A stretch of DNA of 36,265 nt from Alphaproteobacteria bacterium. GTDB lineage: Bacteria > Pseudomonadota > Alphaproteobacteria > Caulobacterales > Aquidulcibacteraceae. The position numbers and the translations under genes are program-made. Below the pieces are notes generated by a model that saw only the letters and a program-made list of their open reading frames with translations, did not search any database and had not been told where the DNA came from. The stretch lies in contig WGOB01000060.1 of the NCBI GenBank assembly GCA_016124255.1, forward strand, positions 1 through 36,265, given 5' to 3'. Shown here piece after piece: positions 65 to 13,237 of this stretch (its first letter is position 1; each line of letters begins with the position of its first letter).

Positions 65-82
65 AAAACGCGCTTGCGCGCA
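65..82 (-). terminator. Short hairpin and T-run at the ncRNA 3' end
   Basis: Minus strand GCGC (81-78), GNRA-type loop GCAA (77-74), GCGC (73-70), G, then TTTT (68-65). It follows immediately after the last anticodon-stem strand of domain 2. The stem is only 4-5 bp, so termination may be inefficient. Confidence 0.4.
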
Positions 83-186
83 ACTGGTGCGTCTGCCGTT
101 CCGCCACGAAGCGACAGCGCCTCGGCGGGAGTTGAACCCACATGCTCCGCCTACGGACGGTCTCCCGCCGTGCTTGGAGCGCCAGT
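83..186 (-). ncRNA. Permuted tRNA-Leu-like domain 2
   Basis: Order on the minus strand: anticodon-stem strand ACTGG (186-182), a 40-nt variable arm (181-142), T-stem GTGGG (141-137), T-loop TTCAACT (136-130), T-stem CCCGC (129-125). Next come 3' acceptor CGAGGCG (124-118), loop CTGT (117-114), 5' acceptor CGCTTCG (113-107), TGGCGGAA-type D-arm typical of tRNA-Leu (106-89), A88 and anticodon-stem strand CCAGT (87-83). ACTGG and CCAGT pair perfectly, so acceptor, D, T and anticodon stems can all form. The usual anticodon loop is absent because the permutation opens there. The variable arm has nested stems GCTCC/GGAGC and ACGG/CCGT, much longer than in ordinary tRNA-Leu. Confidence 0.63.
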
Positions 187-190
187 TCCC

Positions 191-212
191 GATAATCCGA
201 TCCATCCGGCCC
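191..212 (-). repeat. 22-nt element preceding permuted domain 2
   Basis: Minus-strand copy that begins GGGCCG and ends GGATTATC, 4 nt before the ACTGG strand of domain 2. It is 18/22 identical to the copy at 405-426. Mismatches fall at element positions 7, 8, 12 and 17. Confidence 0.6.
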
Positions 213-327
213 GCGCTCGCGGCGTCCCTGAAAGATCGGGGACGCCGCCGCACAGCGCATCGCCGGCCGTTTGGAGGAACGGGCGTGGGGCTGGACGGGA
301 AAGGCCGGACGCCGCGAAGCGCCCGTA

Positions 328-404
328 CCCGCTGCTCTACCAGACTGAGCTACGCGATCTTGCGATCACGGCGGGATTCGAACCCGCGACCTGCGCATTG
401 CAAA
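328..404 (-). ncRNA. Permuted tRNA-like domain 1
   Basis: Order on the minus strand: anticodon-loop-like TTTGCAA (404-398), stem strand TGCGC (397-393), variable segment AGGTC (392-388), T-stem GCGGG (387-383), T-loop TTCGAAT (382-376), T-stem CCCGC (375-371). Next come 3' acceptor CGTGATC (370-364), tetraloop GCAA (363-360), 5' acceptor GATCGCG (359-353), TA, D-stem GCTC (350-347), D-loop AGTCTGGTA, D-stem GAGC (337-334), A333, and stem strand GCGGG (332-328). Acceptor, T and D stems are intact. The anticodon stem is poor: three pairs, one G.G mismatch and one G.U. The TGC triplet resembles an alanine anticodon, but identity is not assigned because that stem is weak. Confidence 0.6.
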
Positions 405-426
405 GATAACCCGAACCAATCGGCCC
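405..426 (-). repeat. 22-nt element preceding permuted domain 1
   Basis: Minus-strand element that begins GGGCCG and ends GGGTTATC, lying directly before the 3' half of domain 1. It matches the element at 191-212 at 18 of 22 positions without gaps. A copy in front of each domain suggests a shared processing or folding signal, or duplication of a whole unit. Confidence 0.6.
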
Positions 427-516
427 ATTCCGCCAAAGCGGCCGGCGACGTGCGCAGAGCGTCGTCTCGTCCGGATCTGCTGATGCAGCCCAAGGCGATC
501 CGACCTGCGCCGCGCG

Positions 517-545
517 CGTATAGTGCATAATGCACTAATCCGCAA
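517..545 (-). promoter_or_regulatory. Sigma70-like promoter for the permuted-tRNA ncRNA
   Basis: On the minus strand TTGCGG (545-540) is followed after exactly 17 nt by TATACG (522-517), both close to the sigma70 consensus. It points into the ncRNA and predicts a start near 510. Interestingly the predicted start region carries GCGCAGGTCG (510-501), repeated exactly at 396-387 inside domain 1. Confidence 0.5.
521..537. promoter_or_regulatory. 17-nt palindrome within the ncRNA promoter spacer
   Basis: TAGTGCAT-A-ATGCACTA is a perfect inverted repeat around one central base. It fills the spacer and overlaps the -10 hexamer of the minus-strand promoter, the classical position for a repressor operator. 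The cognate regulator is not identifiable. Confidence 0.45.
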
Positions 546-658: not shown

Positions 659-1285
659 ATGCCAAACGACGCCGCGCCGAGCAGTGATGTCGCTTTCACC
701 GCGACGGTGAAGGCGGTCCAGGAGGCGCGCGGCTCGCGTCAGACTTATGCGCGCATGGAGGCGCGCGGGGGCTTCCGCACGGCGATCACCGCGGACCTCG
801 CGGCGTTTCTCGCTGAAATCGACACCGCCTATCTCGCGACCGCCAACGCGGCAGGCCAGCCCTATGCGCAGCATCGCGGCGGCCCCAAGGGGTTCATCCG
901 TGTGCTCGACGAACGGACGCTGGCGTTCGCGGATTATCGCGGCAATCGCCAATACGTCACTCTGGGCAACCTCGCGGAGAACGCCAAAGCGTTCCTCTTC
1001 CTGATGGATTACGCGCATCGGCGCCGGATCAAGATCTGGGGCGAGGCGAAGGTCGTCGCCGGCGACGAGGCGCTCATCGCATCGCTGATGCCGGACGGCT
1101 ATGACGCAACGCCGGAGCAGGCGATCGTCTTCACGTTGCATGCGTGGGACATCAATTGCCCGCAGCACATTCCAATGAAGCTCGACGCCGCCGACGTCGC
1201 CGGCGCGCTCGATCACCTGAAGGACAAGATCGCCGCGCTGGAGGCGGAAAACGCCGCGCTGCGCGAGAAGCTCGGGAGCCTGTGA
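659..1285 (+). CDS. Pyridoxamine 5'-phosphate oxidase family FMN-binding protein
   Basis: 208-aa soluble protein of the split-barrel flavin-binding family. The central part (about residues 55-165) has the pattern of these proteins: a core AYLATANAAGQPYAQHRGG strand-turn-strand, then GFIRVLDERTLAFADYRGN and a segment with NLAENAKAFLFL. Such proteins bind FMN or F420-like cofactors and act as small oxidoreductases; the substrate cannot be told. The last 30 residues (LKDKIAALEAENAALREKL) are a strong heptad coiled coil, probably for oligomerisation and not a usual part of the family. The start is supported by GGGAGG at 645-650. A TetR-type palindrome lies at 620-635, suggesting inducible expression, for example by a reactive compound. 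Confidence 0.8.
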   Translation: MPNDAAPSSDVAFTATVKAVQEARGSRQTYARMEARGGFRTAITADLAAFLAEIDTAYLATANAAGQPYAQHRGGPKGFIRVLDERTLAFADYRGNRQYVTLGNLAENAKAFLFLMDYAHRRRIKIWGEAKVVAGDEALIASLMPDGYDATPEQAIVFTLHAWDINCPQHIPMKLDAADVAGALDHLKDKIAALEAENAALREKLGSL

Positions 1286-5994: not shown

Positions 5995-7365
5995 TTACGA
6001 CGGCGATTGCCCCAGTCCCAGCGCCGCGGCGAGCGCAATCGCGGCCTGCGCGCGCTCGGCCTCGGCGACGGCGAGCGCGGCGTCGGCGTCATAGAGCGTG
6101 CGGTCCGCGGTCAGCACGTCGAGGAAGCTGGTGAGGCCGCTGCGATAGCGCGCCTGCGCCAGCGTCGCGGCATCGCGGGCGGAAGCGCGCGCTTGCGCTT
6201 GCGCGTCGACGCGCGCGCGCGCGTTGGCCAGCCGCGCACGCTGCGTTTCCACATCGGCGAGGCGATCGAGCACGGCTTGGCGCAGCTGCGCCGCCTCCGC
6301 CTCCGCCGCGTAATTCTCTGCGCGCGCCAGCGCGCGCAGGCGGCCGAAATTGAACAGCGGCGCGGTGAGCGCGATGGCGCTCTGGGTCTGGTCGCCATCA
6401 CTCAGCGCGCCGCTGAAGCCGCTGGGCGCCGACACGCTCAACAGCGCCGCCTCCAGGCTCACGCGCGGCCAGAGATCGGCCCGCGCGGCCGCGGCGGTGA
6501 AGCCGGCGCGCGCCAGACGCGCTTCGGCTGCGGCGATGTCGGGATGATGTGCGAGCACATCGGCCGGCGCGCTGAGCATCTGATCGGTTCTGATGTCGGG
6601 GATCGGCTGGGCCGCGGCCAGCGCTTGGCTCAACGCGCCCGGCTCTAAGCCGAGCAGCGCTTCCAGCGCCAATCGCGCCTCCGTTTCGGCCTGGGCGAAT
6701 TGGGGAAGCCGCGCGCGCGCGGCGTCTCGCGCCGCGCGCGCCTGTGCGGGGCTCAATCCGCTTTCGAGGCCCGCGCTGTAGCGGCTGTCGGACAGCGCGA
6801 AGCTCTCGGCGGCGGCGTGTTCGCCGGCGGCGGCGGCGGCGCGCTGGGCCTGGGCGCTGCGCAAGGCGATGTAGAGATCAGCGGCGGTGCGCCGCGCTTC
6901 GATGCGCGCCAGGCGCAGCAGCGCGTCGCGTTCGTTCGCGGTTGCGCCCGCAGCGCGCAATCGATTGCGGCTGGCGCCGAAGATATCAAGATCAAGGCCG
7001 ACGCCGAGTGAGGCTTGTTCAACGTCATAGGCTGGCGCGTCGGCGAGATCGGTTCGGCTCGCCTCGCCGTTCGCCGTGATGCTCGGCAGAAGCGATCCGC
7101 GCGCGGCGGCGACGCGCGCGCGCGCCTCCAGGTAGCGCGCTTCGGCTTCGGCGATGCTGTTGATTGCGCCGGCGCGGTCGATGAGATCGATCAGCGCGGG
7201 ATCGGATACGCCGTCGCGCCACCAGGCGTCGATCGCCGCGCCGGATCGCGGTGCACTTTCACCAAGCCATTGCGACGGCGCGGACGCGGGCGGATCGATG
7301 TTGGGCGCCGTCACGCATCCGGTTGCGATCGAGAGCGCGGCGAGCGCGGTGACGCGGGCTTTCAT
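5995..7365 (-). CDS. Outer-membrane efflux lipoprotein (TolC/NodT family)
   Basis: 456 aa with a lipoprotein signal: basic start, hydrophobic AALSIATG and Cys17 of the lipobox. The body is two repeats of long amphipathic helices rich in Ala and Arg (for example the stretch around EIARYLEARARVAAARGSLLP) interrupted by beta segments, the TolC arrangement. Typical NodT members are about 450-500 aa, so it is full length. It would form the trimeric outer-membrane exit duct for the adaptor/ATPase/permease encoded just upstream in the same operon. Its start overlaps the adaptor stop by 4 bp (7362-7365). Confidence 0.86.
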   Translation of the reverse strand: MKARVTALAALSIATGCVTAPNIDPPASAPSQWLGESAPRSGAAIDAWWRDGVSDPALIDLIDRAGAINSIAEAEARYLEARARVAAARGSLLPSITANGEASRTDLADAPAYDVEQASLGVGLDLDIFGASRNRLRAAGATANERDALLRLARIEARRTAADLYIALRSAQAQRAAAAAGEHAAAESFALSDSRYSAGLESGLSPAQARAARDAARARLPQFAQAETEARLALEALLGLEPGALSQALAAAQPIPDIRTDQMLSAPADVLAHHPDIAAAEARLARAGFTAAAARADLWPRVSLEAALLSVSAPSGFSGALSDGDQTQSAIALTAPLFNFGRLRALARAENYAAEAEAAQLRQAVLDRLADVETQRARLANARARVDAQAQARASARDAATLAQARYRSGLTSFLDVLTADRTLYDADAALAVAEAERAQAAIALAAALGLGQSPS

Positions 7366-8291
7366 TGCGGCGCCTCCGGCGCGATCAAGGGGCGCGCGGC
7401 GACGAACACATCCATCTGCTGGCCGACAAGCGCATCGAGCGCTGCGGGATCGAACGCGTAGATGGCCTCTACGACGCGCGTATCGACGCGCTCGGCGCCG
7501 CCGTTGAGATTGGTCTTCGGCCGCGCCTGCGGCTCCAGACGGACAAAGGTCAGCGGCACGCGGCGGCTCGCATCGCCGCGCAGCGCGCCCTCGGCGCGGG
7601 CGTCGGCGCCGATCCGGCCGAAATCCTCCTCATCGATCTGCACGCGCACGTGCAGCGTCTCAGTGGCGCCGAGCGCCATCAGCGGGTCGCTGATCAGACC
7701 GGCCTGCGCGAACTCGCCGGGGCGCACGTTTACGCGCAGCACCTCGCCCGCGATCGGCGCACGCGTGGTGTGCCGCGCGATCTCGACTTCAAGTTCGCGC
7801 ACGCGGGCGCGGGCCAGCGACAGATCGGCCTCGGCGCGATCGGCGGCGAAGCGCGCGCGGTCGCGCTCATCGGCGCTGGCGGCGCGGGGATCGGGCAAAT
7901 TGTCGAACAGCGCGAGGCGCGCCTGTGCATCGCGCACGGCGATCTGCGACACCGACAAGGACGCCCGCGCCGAGGAGAGCGCCGCTTCGGCTGCGCGCGT
8001 GTCCAATCGGAAGAGGGCCGCGCCGGCTTCGACCGCTTGTCCCGGGCGCACGTAAACGTCGCGCACGACGCCGGACAGCTCGGTCGCGATCTCGAGCGTT
8101 TCACTCGACGGCTCGACCACGCCGACCGCGGCGACGCTTGCGCCCAATTGCGCGCTCGCGCTCGGCGGGGGAATGGCGGGCGCGCCCGTGGCGGCGCCGG
8201 GCTGATCGATGGCGACCACCGCAAAGCCGATCGCGCCGATGGCGGCGATCGGCAATCCGGCGCGTTTGGCGAGATTCATGTCAATGCGCAT
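7362..8291 (-). CDS. HlyD/MacA-type periplasmic adaptor (membrane fusion protein)
   Basis: 309 aa. One N-terminal membrane anchor (LPIAAIGAIGFAVVAI), then a biotinyl-lipoyl-like half (GVVRDVYVRPGQAVEAGAALFRLD), a helical hairpin (about 100-170) and the second lipoyl half (RAPIAGEVLRVNVRPGEF) followed by a beta-barrel. It bridges the inner-membrane ABC transporter and the TolC-like protein. The start at 8291 is chosen because GGAGAG sits 7 nt upstream; ATG 8279 and an upstream ATG/GTG at 8315 are alternatives. It overlaps the ATPase gene by 11 bp and the outer membrane gene by 4 bp, so the four genes are one tightly coupled operon. DevB is the closest analogue by context. Confidence 0.85.
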   Translation of the reverse strand: MRIDMNLAKRAGLPIAAIGAIGFAVVAIDQPGAATGAPAIPPPSASAQLGASVAAVGVVEPSSETLEIATELSGVVRDVYVRPGQAVEAGAALFRLDTRAAEAALSSARASLSVSQIAVRDAQARLALFDNLPDPRAASADERDRARFAADRAEADLSLARARVRELEVEIARHTTRAPIAGEVLRVNVRPGEFAQAGLISDPLMALGATETLHVRVQIDEEDFGRIGADARAEGALRGDASRRVPLTFVRLEPQARPKTNLNGGAERVDTRVVEAIYAFDPAALDALVGQQMDVFVAARPLIAPEAPQ

Positions 8292-12058: not shown

Positions 12059-13237
12059 CTAACGGCTCAACTCCTTCATCGCGTCTTCCAGCCCCTTCAG
12101 CGTCAGCGGGAACATGCGGTCGGCGCCGATGATGTCCCGGATGAGGCCGACGCTGGGCGTGTGGTCCCAATGGGCGCGCGGCACGGGGTTGAGCCACACG
12201 ACGCGCTCGTAGATGTCCGTCACGCGATGCAGCCACAGCGCGCCCGGCTCGTCATTCCAATGCTCGACGCTGCCGCCCGGATAGGTGATCTCGTAGGGGC
12301 TCATCGTCGCATCGCCGACGAACAGGATTTTATAGTCGTGCGGGAATTTGTGCAGCACCTCGAACGTTGAGGTCTTTTCCGTGTTGCGGCGGCGATTGTC
12401 CTTCCACACGCTCTCATAAAGACAATTGTGGAAGTAGAAGAATTCGAGGTGCTTGAACTCGGTCTTCGCGGCGGAGAACAATTCCTCGCAGAGCTTGATG
12501 TGCGCGTCCATCGAGCCGCCGATGTCGAGGAACAAGAGCACCTTGATCGTGTTGCGCCGTTCCGGGCGCATGAGAATATCGAGATAGCCCTGCCGCGCGG
12601 TTGAGCGGATGGTGCCGTCGAGATCGAATTCGTCGGGCGCGCCGGTGCGCGCGAACTTGCGCAACCGCCGCAGCGCCACCTTGATGTTGCGGGTGCCGAG
12701 CTCGACGCTGTCGTCGAGGTTCTTGTACTCGCGCTTGTCCCACACTTTGACGGCGCGGCCATGGCGGCCCTTATCCTGGCCGATGCGGATGCCTTCGGGG
12801 TGGTAGCCGTTGTTGCCGAACGGGCTCGTGCCGCCTGAGCCGATCCACTTGTTGCCGCCCTCGTGGCGATCTTTCTGTTCTTCGAGGCGCTGCTTCAGCG
12901 TCTCCATCAGCTCGTCCCAGCCGCCGCGCTCTTCGATCTGATCCTTCTCTTCCTCAGTCAGGTATTTCTCGGTCAGCGCGCGCAGCCATTCCTCAGGGAT
13001 CAGACCCTCGATGGTCTCGTGCACATAATCGACGCCCTTGAACACAGAGCCGAACACGCGATCGAACTTGTCGATGTGGCGCTCGTCCTTCACCAGCGCG
13101 GCGCGGGCGAGGTAATAGAAATCGTCGATCTTGGGCGGGATGACGTCCTTATCCAGACACTCCACGAGCGTCAGATATTCCTTTAGGGAAACCGGGACTT
13201 TCGCCGCCCGCAGCTCAGTGAAGAAGCGCTGAAACAT
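12059..13237 (-). CDS. CoxE-like VWA domain protein
   Basis: 392 aa. N-terminal helical region (1-130, with acidic/basic coiled stretch EEEKDQIEERGGWDELMETLK), then a conserved linker (GGTSPFGNNGYHPEGIRIG) and a C-terminal von Willebrand A domain. The MIDAS motif is DIGGSMD at residues 238-244 (DxGxS variant). CoxE-type proteins work with MoxR AAA+ ATPases in metal-centre insertion or protein activation. The partner ATPase is at 17245-18096 on the opposite strand, about 4 kb away, instead of in the usual adjacent position. The start at 13237 replaces a longer frame to 13423 whose N-terminus has no family resemblance. It is last in a row of three same-strand genes. Confidence 0.84.
   Translation of the reverse strand: MFQRFFTELRAAKVPVSLKEYLTLVECLDKDVIPPKIDDFYYLARAALVKDERHIDKFDRVFGSVFKGVDYVHETIEGLIPEEWLRALTEKYLTEEEKDQIEERGGWDELMETLKQRLEEQKDRHEGGNKWIGSGGTSPFGNNGYHPEGIRIGQDKGRHGRAVKVWDKREYKNLDDSVELGTRNIKVALRRLRKFARTGAPDEFDLDGTIRSTARQGYLDILMRPERRNTIKVLLFLDIGGSMDAHIKLCEELFSAAKTEFKHLEFFYFHNCLYESVWKDNRRRNTEKTSTFEVLHKFPHDYKILFVGDATMSPYEITYPGGSVEHWNDEPGALWLHRVTDIYERVVWLNPVPRAHWDHTPSVGLIRDIIGADRMFPLTLKGLEDAMKELSR

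Follow-up and report, generated by a model that had tools for sequence, protein, structure and literature searches.

A bacterial contig, C88 of a 97-contig host genome, very probably carries two tandem genes for bacterial Y RNAs at its end, likely served by one regulated promoter. The window, meaning the whole 36,265-base stretch of DNA that we analysed, starts at base 1 of this contig, and both genes lie on its minus strand, Y RNA 1 at 262–446 and Y RNA 2 at about 42–218. Y RNA 1 is of the known YrlA type and Y RNA 2 contains a permuted class II domain of tRNA-Leu type; such a permuted Y RNA with a long variable arm appears to be a new variant. An earlier note on this DNA had described one non-coding RNA at 65–510 and left the leucine-like, class II nature of the second unit, which is the novel part of the locus, unremarked. 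The feature is larger, extending from a promoter-like element at 517–545 through Y RNA 1 (446–262) to Y RNA 2 (about 218–42), and comprises two complete modules, perhaps co-transcribed. This reading draws on the architecture, a Ro60-linked motif, a Ro60 gene in the same genome, covariation among class I units and likeness to tRNA-Leu, all of them features of sequence.

Both units show the same order on the minus strand, with a T arm followed by the 3′ acceptor strand, a loop of four nucleotides, the 5′ acceptor strand and the D arm. Unit 1, whose permuted tRNA-like domain spans 334–387, has the T arm GCGGG-TTCGAAT-CCCGC (387–371), the acceptor hairpin CGTGATC-GCAA-GATCGCG with its GNRA loop (370–353), which covaries in relatives, and the D arm GCTC-AGTCTGGTA-GAGC (350–334). 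In unit 2, the T arm GTGGG-TTCAACT-CCCGC (141–125) leads into the acceptor hairpin CGAGGCG-CTGT-CGCTTCG (124–107) and the D arm (GCG...CGC, 104–89; GCGGAACGGCAGACGC with the adjoining anticodon-stem strand ACCAGT, 104–83). A class II variable arm GCTCC...GGAGC with an inner ACGG/CCGT helix occupies 144–180, and ACTGG at 186–182 pairs with CCAGT. The pairing reported in the earlier note is borne out on the minus strand, with seven of seven acceptor pairs including one G.U in each unit, four-nucleotide loops and five of five pairs for ACTGG/CCAGT. Further out, Y RNA 1 has a closing stem (433–446 with 262–274), a Ro60-type motif (405–426) followed by a hairpin, and a 3′ strand CACGCCCG within 276–287. 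The corresponding parts of Y RNA 2 are the Ro60-type motif GCCGGATGGATCGGATTATC (210–191), a hairpin GCGC-GCAA-GCGC (69–81) and a 3′ strand CACGCCCGC within 42–53. Between the two Y RNAs lies a perfect 10-bp hairpin, GCGGCGTCCC/GGGACGCCGC (219–248, minus strand), that has no T run and is possibly a processing signal.

A chance origin of this arrangement is improbable, as the earlier note had argued. A descriptor requiring a fully paired 5-bp T stem, a TTCRANY loop and a 7/7 acceptor around a loop of 3–14 matched twice in the 36,265 bases, both times at the two units, and 100 dinucleotide shuffles of the window yielded a mean of 0.54 T arms and no acceptor match. Adding a strict D-arm score to the descriptor let one of the two units pass.

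At gathering thresholds, Rfam gave no matches in the window. Up to an E value of 1, the sole match within positions 1–900 was unit 1 to the YrlA family RF02553 (49.7 bits, E 5.4e-10), aligned over model positions 23–85 of 114, which comprise the T arm, acceptor hairpin and D arm. This misses the gathering score of 69 bits; none of the 60 family genomes attains that score, indicating that the model is narrow. Unit 2 scored 15.8 bits (E 3), far under the gathering score. The fold of unit 1 (252–446) is that of a complete Y RNA, with end-to-end stem and folded tRNA-like domain (z −3.07, equalled by none of 200 shuffles). By sequence, unit 2 has the same closed-acceptor permuted domain and the same stem with its Ro60-linked motif. 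In its fold (20–240), GCGCGGGC is paired to GCCCGCGC and both the variable arm and the T arm are present, but the minimum-energy structure displaces the acceptor; with a z of 0.02, unit 2 folds no better than shuffles and has no thermodynamic support.

According to an excerpt of the ARTEMIS work (PMC11472068), bacterial Y RNA (YrlA, PDB 6CU1) can be superposed on tRNA when circular permutation is allowed for, so bacteria were already known to have a permuted tRNA-like RNA. With this solved structure and the RF02553 match of unit 1, the lack of a bacterial precedent asserted in the earlier note falls away. YrlA resembles the window units in having a T arm and a D arm with a closed acceptor hairpin between them, in its large end-to-end stem and in its association with Ro60/Rsr. 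It differs from unit 2, whose D arm is that of a tRNA-Leu, whose class II variable arm is long and whose anticodon stem is retained, and also in that the window units, in this assembly, do not adjoin a Ro60 gene.

The sole Ro60 gene found in the host lies on contig C84 and encodes 548 amino acids (vWA_Ro60 E 1.9e-63; TROVE E 7.3e-43, over cut-off). Directly upstream of it sits a third permuted unit, its acceptor capped by GCAA (RF02553 20.9 bits, E 0.1). The window units are on C88, which ends at base 1 beside unit 2. A kinase, a PP2C phosphatase and a VWA protein stand in a row near the C84 Ro60 gene (locus L011, G000 contig C84, 3–5044), with a TIR-domain protein on the opposite strand.

Across the family, RF02553 matches occur in 11 of 60 genomes, all of them among the 14 that are TROVE-positive at E up to 0.001 (13 over cut-off). 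Twenty of the 21 matches lie at most about 1.1 kb upstream of TROVE, the exception being the window. Tandem units are usual, since eight of the 11 matching genomes have two or three matches; the tandem order reported in the earlier note holds. An RF02553 match on its own, outside a Ro60 context, is weak, because at E up to 0.001 the model also matches in 7 of 14 control genomes. Perfect T arms in 14 Ro60 loci show the same placement, with 31 of 34 lying within 1.7 kb upstream of TROVE on the same strand. A 7/7 permuted acceptor follows in 14 of these 31, versus 28 of 1,257 in viral control loci, which are tRNA-rich and were chosen for tRNA-Leu-like patterns.

We also aligned 15 units, namely 14 of the 21 family RF02553 matches and the C84 unit (L011); the other seven matches were not found by the descriptor or had a broken D arm by it. 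The acceptor helix is paired throughout, and five of its seven pairs show double changes, the compensatory changes in relatives that had been proposed earlier as a check. Whole-structure covariation is 0.305, compared with 0.171 in shuffles (0/500 as high) and 0.03–0.095 in slid versions, in a test that is not independent, the rows having been picked by a descriptor that requires acceptor pairing. Given this preselection, the T-arm count in Ro60 loci is the more independent support.

The 5′ strand of Y RNAs carries the Ro60 site, and in both window units the motif G.CGR-N9-NTTATC (GNCGR...TTATC) stands upstream of the T arm on this strand. In unit 1 it reads GCCGATTGGTTCGGGTTATC (from 424), identical to the sequence in loci L045 (G057) and L055, and in unit 2 it starts at 210; on the 3′ side, both units have CACGCCCG, able to pair with the 5′ strand. 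We wrote the pattern after inspecting the window together with its relatives. Across 20 long-type Ro60 loci, 206,639 bases in all, it has 37 matches, a few of them lying away from any Y RNA, and Ro60 genes of other phyla also have it nearby. Fifteen of the 20 loci contain it, and L051, L059, L065, L067 and L071 do not; L054 was left out of the 20, being taken as the same contig as L051 (9,476 bases each). The 34 control loci, 102,024 bases together, have no match; this set excludes L077 and L078, which both show the window's own two units. Viral loci have nine matches in 1,284,523 bases. A further copy lies at 13134 in the window. The motif was not found beside the units of the family's short-type Ro60 loci (L036–L044).

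Animal Y RNAs and stem-bulge RNAs (sbRNAs) are not known to contain a tRNA-like domain. Vertebrate Y RNAs and nematode sbRNAs carry a UUAUC motif according to an excerpt of PMC4726728, where the window has GNCGR...TTATC; the same excerpt treats bacterial Y RNAs as not homologous with the vertebrate clades. A Y RNA locus of Verrucomicrobia UBA6082 (L060:4851-4924) matches the nematode sbRNA family RF01656 at 42.4 bits, with a gathering score of 38.

Upstream of both genes is a candidate promoter, TTGCGG-N17-TATACG (517–545, minus strand), whose spacer holds the palindrome TTAGTGCATTATGCACTA (521–538). Allowing up to two mismatches, the palindrome has two sites in the host genome, one here and one before the Ro60-linked unit on C84. 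Among the five genomes searched it is confined to Y RNA/Ro60 loci, with one site in G010 before Ro60, two in the Y cluster of G057 and none in G011 or G012. Common to the five sites are a TTG element and a 17-nt spacing to a TANNNN hexamer. A permuted unit was not found in G010, despite the element before its Ro60 gene. Since the window and C84 share the element, we infer a probable co-regulation of the Y RNAs in the window with the Ro60 locus. Another palindrome, AGACCGATCGGTCT (621–634), lies upstream of a PNPOx-like gene (659–1285) and is possibly a repressor site.

The order of the halves, with the 3′ half before the 5′ half in both units, is also that of the permuted tRNA genes of red algae and some archaea, whose precursors are circularised and cut. 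That the window units are genuine genes of this kind, as the tRNA precursor suggested earlier would require, is highly improbable. ARAGORN found no tRNA in the window. With its halves swapped, unit 1 is called as a tRNA in 16 of 16 constructs; these had ACCA added, however, and no amino acid could be assigned in nine of them, the other seven giving four different amino acids depending on the junction. Reordered unit 2 was called in none of nine constructs, and neither unit yields a definable anticodon on reordering. Algal and archaeal permuted tRNAs become mature tRNAs after splicing, whereas the window units have no defined anticodon and no open acceptor: their acceptors are capped by GCAA and CTGT and lack CCA, and the anticodon end continues into the Ro60-type stem. 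Five ordinary tRNA-Leu are already present in the host, and bacteria are not known to have the enzymes that splice permuted tRNAs in archaea and algae. Both units are absent from the 41 RF00005 matches of the host genome; this list is incomplete, because an ordinary tRNA-Leu(CAA) on contig C78 is missing from it too.

The permuted, two-piece tmRNA of alphaproteobacteria likewise places its 3′ tRNA part before its 5′ part and offers a bacterial case of the same order, yet the chance that the window encodes one is close to nil. The window has no match to tmRNA families: the Rfam library searched included the permuted tmRNA family RF04321, gave no gathering-level match in the window and, up to E 1 in positions 1–900, matched YrlA only. 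Moreover, both units have ordinary D arms, which tmRNA does not.

We compared unit 2 with the 37 host tRNA sequences that ARAGORN finds in 35 loci. For its 5′ half, all five host tRNA-Leu rank first with scores of 33–39, compared with 21 for the next tRNA and a median of 12. For its T arm and acceptor, tRNA-Leu(TAA) and tRNA-Leu(TAG) rank first (29 and 25; next 21). The anticodon stem, open at its loop end, resembles the stem of tRNA-Leu(CAG), and the class II variable arm at 144–180 is kept. YrlA-type units have TAGCTCAG D arms, unlike unit 2. In the titles and abstracts searched, we found no Leu-type class II Y RNA; Chen 2014, Wang 2018 and Sim & Wolin 2018 may have one.

BLAST of unit 2 against the 60 family genomes returned its own copy and fragments of 19–28 bases. 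A permuted-Leu pattern matched in 34 of 398 phylum-sample genomes, and the window alone reached a 7/7 acceptor among the 54 matches listed (30 loci, 24 strings), the next best two having 6/7. Locus L070 (Anaerolineales) is an independent case of a Leu-type Y RNA unit. There, the unit lies inside a Y RNA, within a cluster of several Y RNAs directly after Ro60 in which ARAGORN finds no tRNA, and its fold forms the T arm, acceptor and D arm (z −1.35).

Some Ro60 loci of other phyla lie within tRNA arrays, and the other family and phylum genomes searched yielded no copy of unit 2, as might be expected if the window held a decayed tRNA-array remnant or a chance set of tRNA fragments. We regard this as very unlikely. 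No shuffle (n = 100) reproduces the units, the acceptors covary in relatives, and L070 repeats the same order and motif; unit 2 jointly keeps a 7/7 acceptor, a 5/5 T stem, a 5/5 anticodon stem, the variable arm and the Ro60-type motif. As a separate observation, the Ro60 genes of Polyangium, Bradyrhizobium and Minicystis (L058, L059, L061, L069) sit inside arrays of 26–38 predicted tRNA/tmRNA genes per 12 kb. TROVE has been linked with archaeal tRNA clusters, according to a passage of PMC6333295.

In viral contigs, a 7/7 acceptor occurs in at least five of at least 160 distinct permuted-Leu pattern matches. Six viral contigs, four of them with a 7/7 unit, were tested for TROVE, and one gave 18.8 bits, missing the cut-off of 23. 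Neither unit 2 nor the L226 unit had a BLAST match among 50,697 phage records. A Ro60 match was present in 341 phage records, and we inspected the Ro60 loci of three named phages: YrlA-type units are present in those of Cashline and Sparky and none in that of Pinkcreek, and a Leu-type unit is found in none of the three. One viral contig (L112, IMGVR_UViG_3300045107_000413, 705–975, minus strand) has a permuted Leu-type unit whose acceptor loop is CTGT as in the window, with an 11-bp outer stem and a neighbouring hairpin with CTTAAAA (anticodon-like UAA).

On these grounds, we propose a mechanism for the two Y RNAs. The lower stem of each RNA presents the Ro60-type motif, with GNCGR...TTATC on the 5′ strand and CACGCCCG on the 3′ strand, and would dock on the host Ro60 ring encoded on C84, by analogy with Rsr/YrlA and RYPER. 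The tRNA-like effector domain stands at the far end of the stem and is entered via the anticodon position, which permutes the tRNA order circularly and turns the acceptor end into a closed hairpin. This domain would then recruit, or compete for, a partner that binds tRNA, for instance PNPase, a tRNA nuclease or tRNA-modifying enzymes. Unit 1 is of the ordinary class I (TAGCTCAG) type and unit 2 is a class II, tRNA-Leu-type mimic that keeps its variable arm, possibly with a tRNA-Leu-specific partner. That YrlA is modified by DusA and TruB and has PNPase as a known partner is described in an excerpt of PMC8394870. Expression of the window RNAs, their binding to Ro60, their partner and their function are what we infer; of the roles listed in the earlier note, the one that proved apt was that of a tRNA mimic or a ligand for a tRNA-binding protein.

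The tRNA-like domains might instead act as decoys that soak up a tRNA nuclease or enzyme, one acting on tRNA-Leu in the case of unit 2, rather than as a tether for PNPase. A competitive-inhibitor role has been proposed for YrlA, according to an excerpt of PMC7790460, and Leu-type permuted units do occur in viral contigs; of six contigs tested, one has the sub-cut-off TROVE score (18.8 bits against 23). Unit 2 is without an anticodon loop, the usual target of tRNA nucleases. We consider decoy action rather unlikely, although it is compatible with the preferred reading of two Y RNA genes.

It is possible, and we put it forward tentatively, that Y RNAs hold a repertoire of tRNA mimics that includes class II tRNA-Leu, through which a Ro60 particle would address a partner with specificity for one tRNA type, and that the join between Ro and tRNA modules is topologically free. 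The long variable arm in tRNA-Leu mimics would be kept as an identity element. The join would combine a closed acceptor with an open Ro stem in the window, an open acceptor with a closed Ro stem in Myxococcota, and in phages a second tRNA would replace the Ro stem. A Y RNA locus that holds an ordinary mimic next to a different, leucine-type one makes the partner and tRNA specificity of Ro60 particles testable. Our results suggest that such RNAs escape both the Rfam YrlA model and tRNA-finding programs and may be under-annotated in bacteria and phages.

Beside Ro60 in Minicystis rosea (L061:6902-7023 and 7031-7154) and Polyangium (L058:6879-7002 and L069:6880-7004) lie tRNA-like RNAs in ordinary order (RF00005, 45–51 bits). 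Their anticodon arm carries a long insert with a GNCGR...GGTTATC-type motif, which reads GGTTAAC in L069; compared with YrlA, they have the same two modules permuted the other way. We also observed tRNA-in-tRNA RNAs, in which an ordinary outer cloverleaf has its anticodon arm replaced by an inner, circularly permuted tRNA. One is in Burkholderia phage FLC9 (L274:694-840; LC667451.1, about 129,244–129,372), at a site for which no annotation was found; its minimum-energy fold is without the inner T arm. Two more stand in a row on a viral contig (L205:7520-7680 and 7680-7835, IMGVR_UViG_3300026430_000073), and in their folds the outer cloverleaf has its acceptor and D arm and the inner tRNA its T arm and acceptor, the second without an inner D arm. 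The inner tRNA is Leu-type in FLC9 and in the first of this pair.
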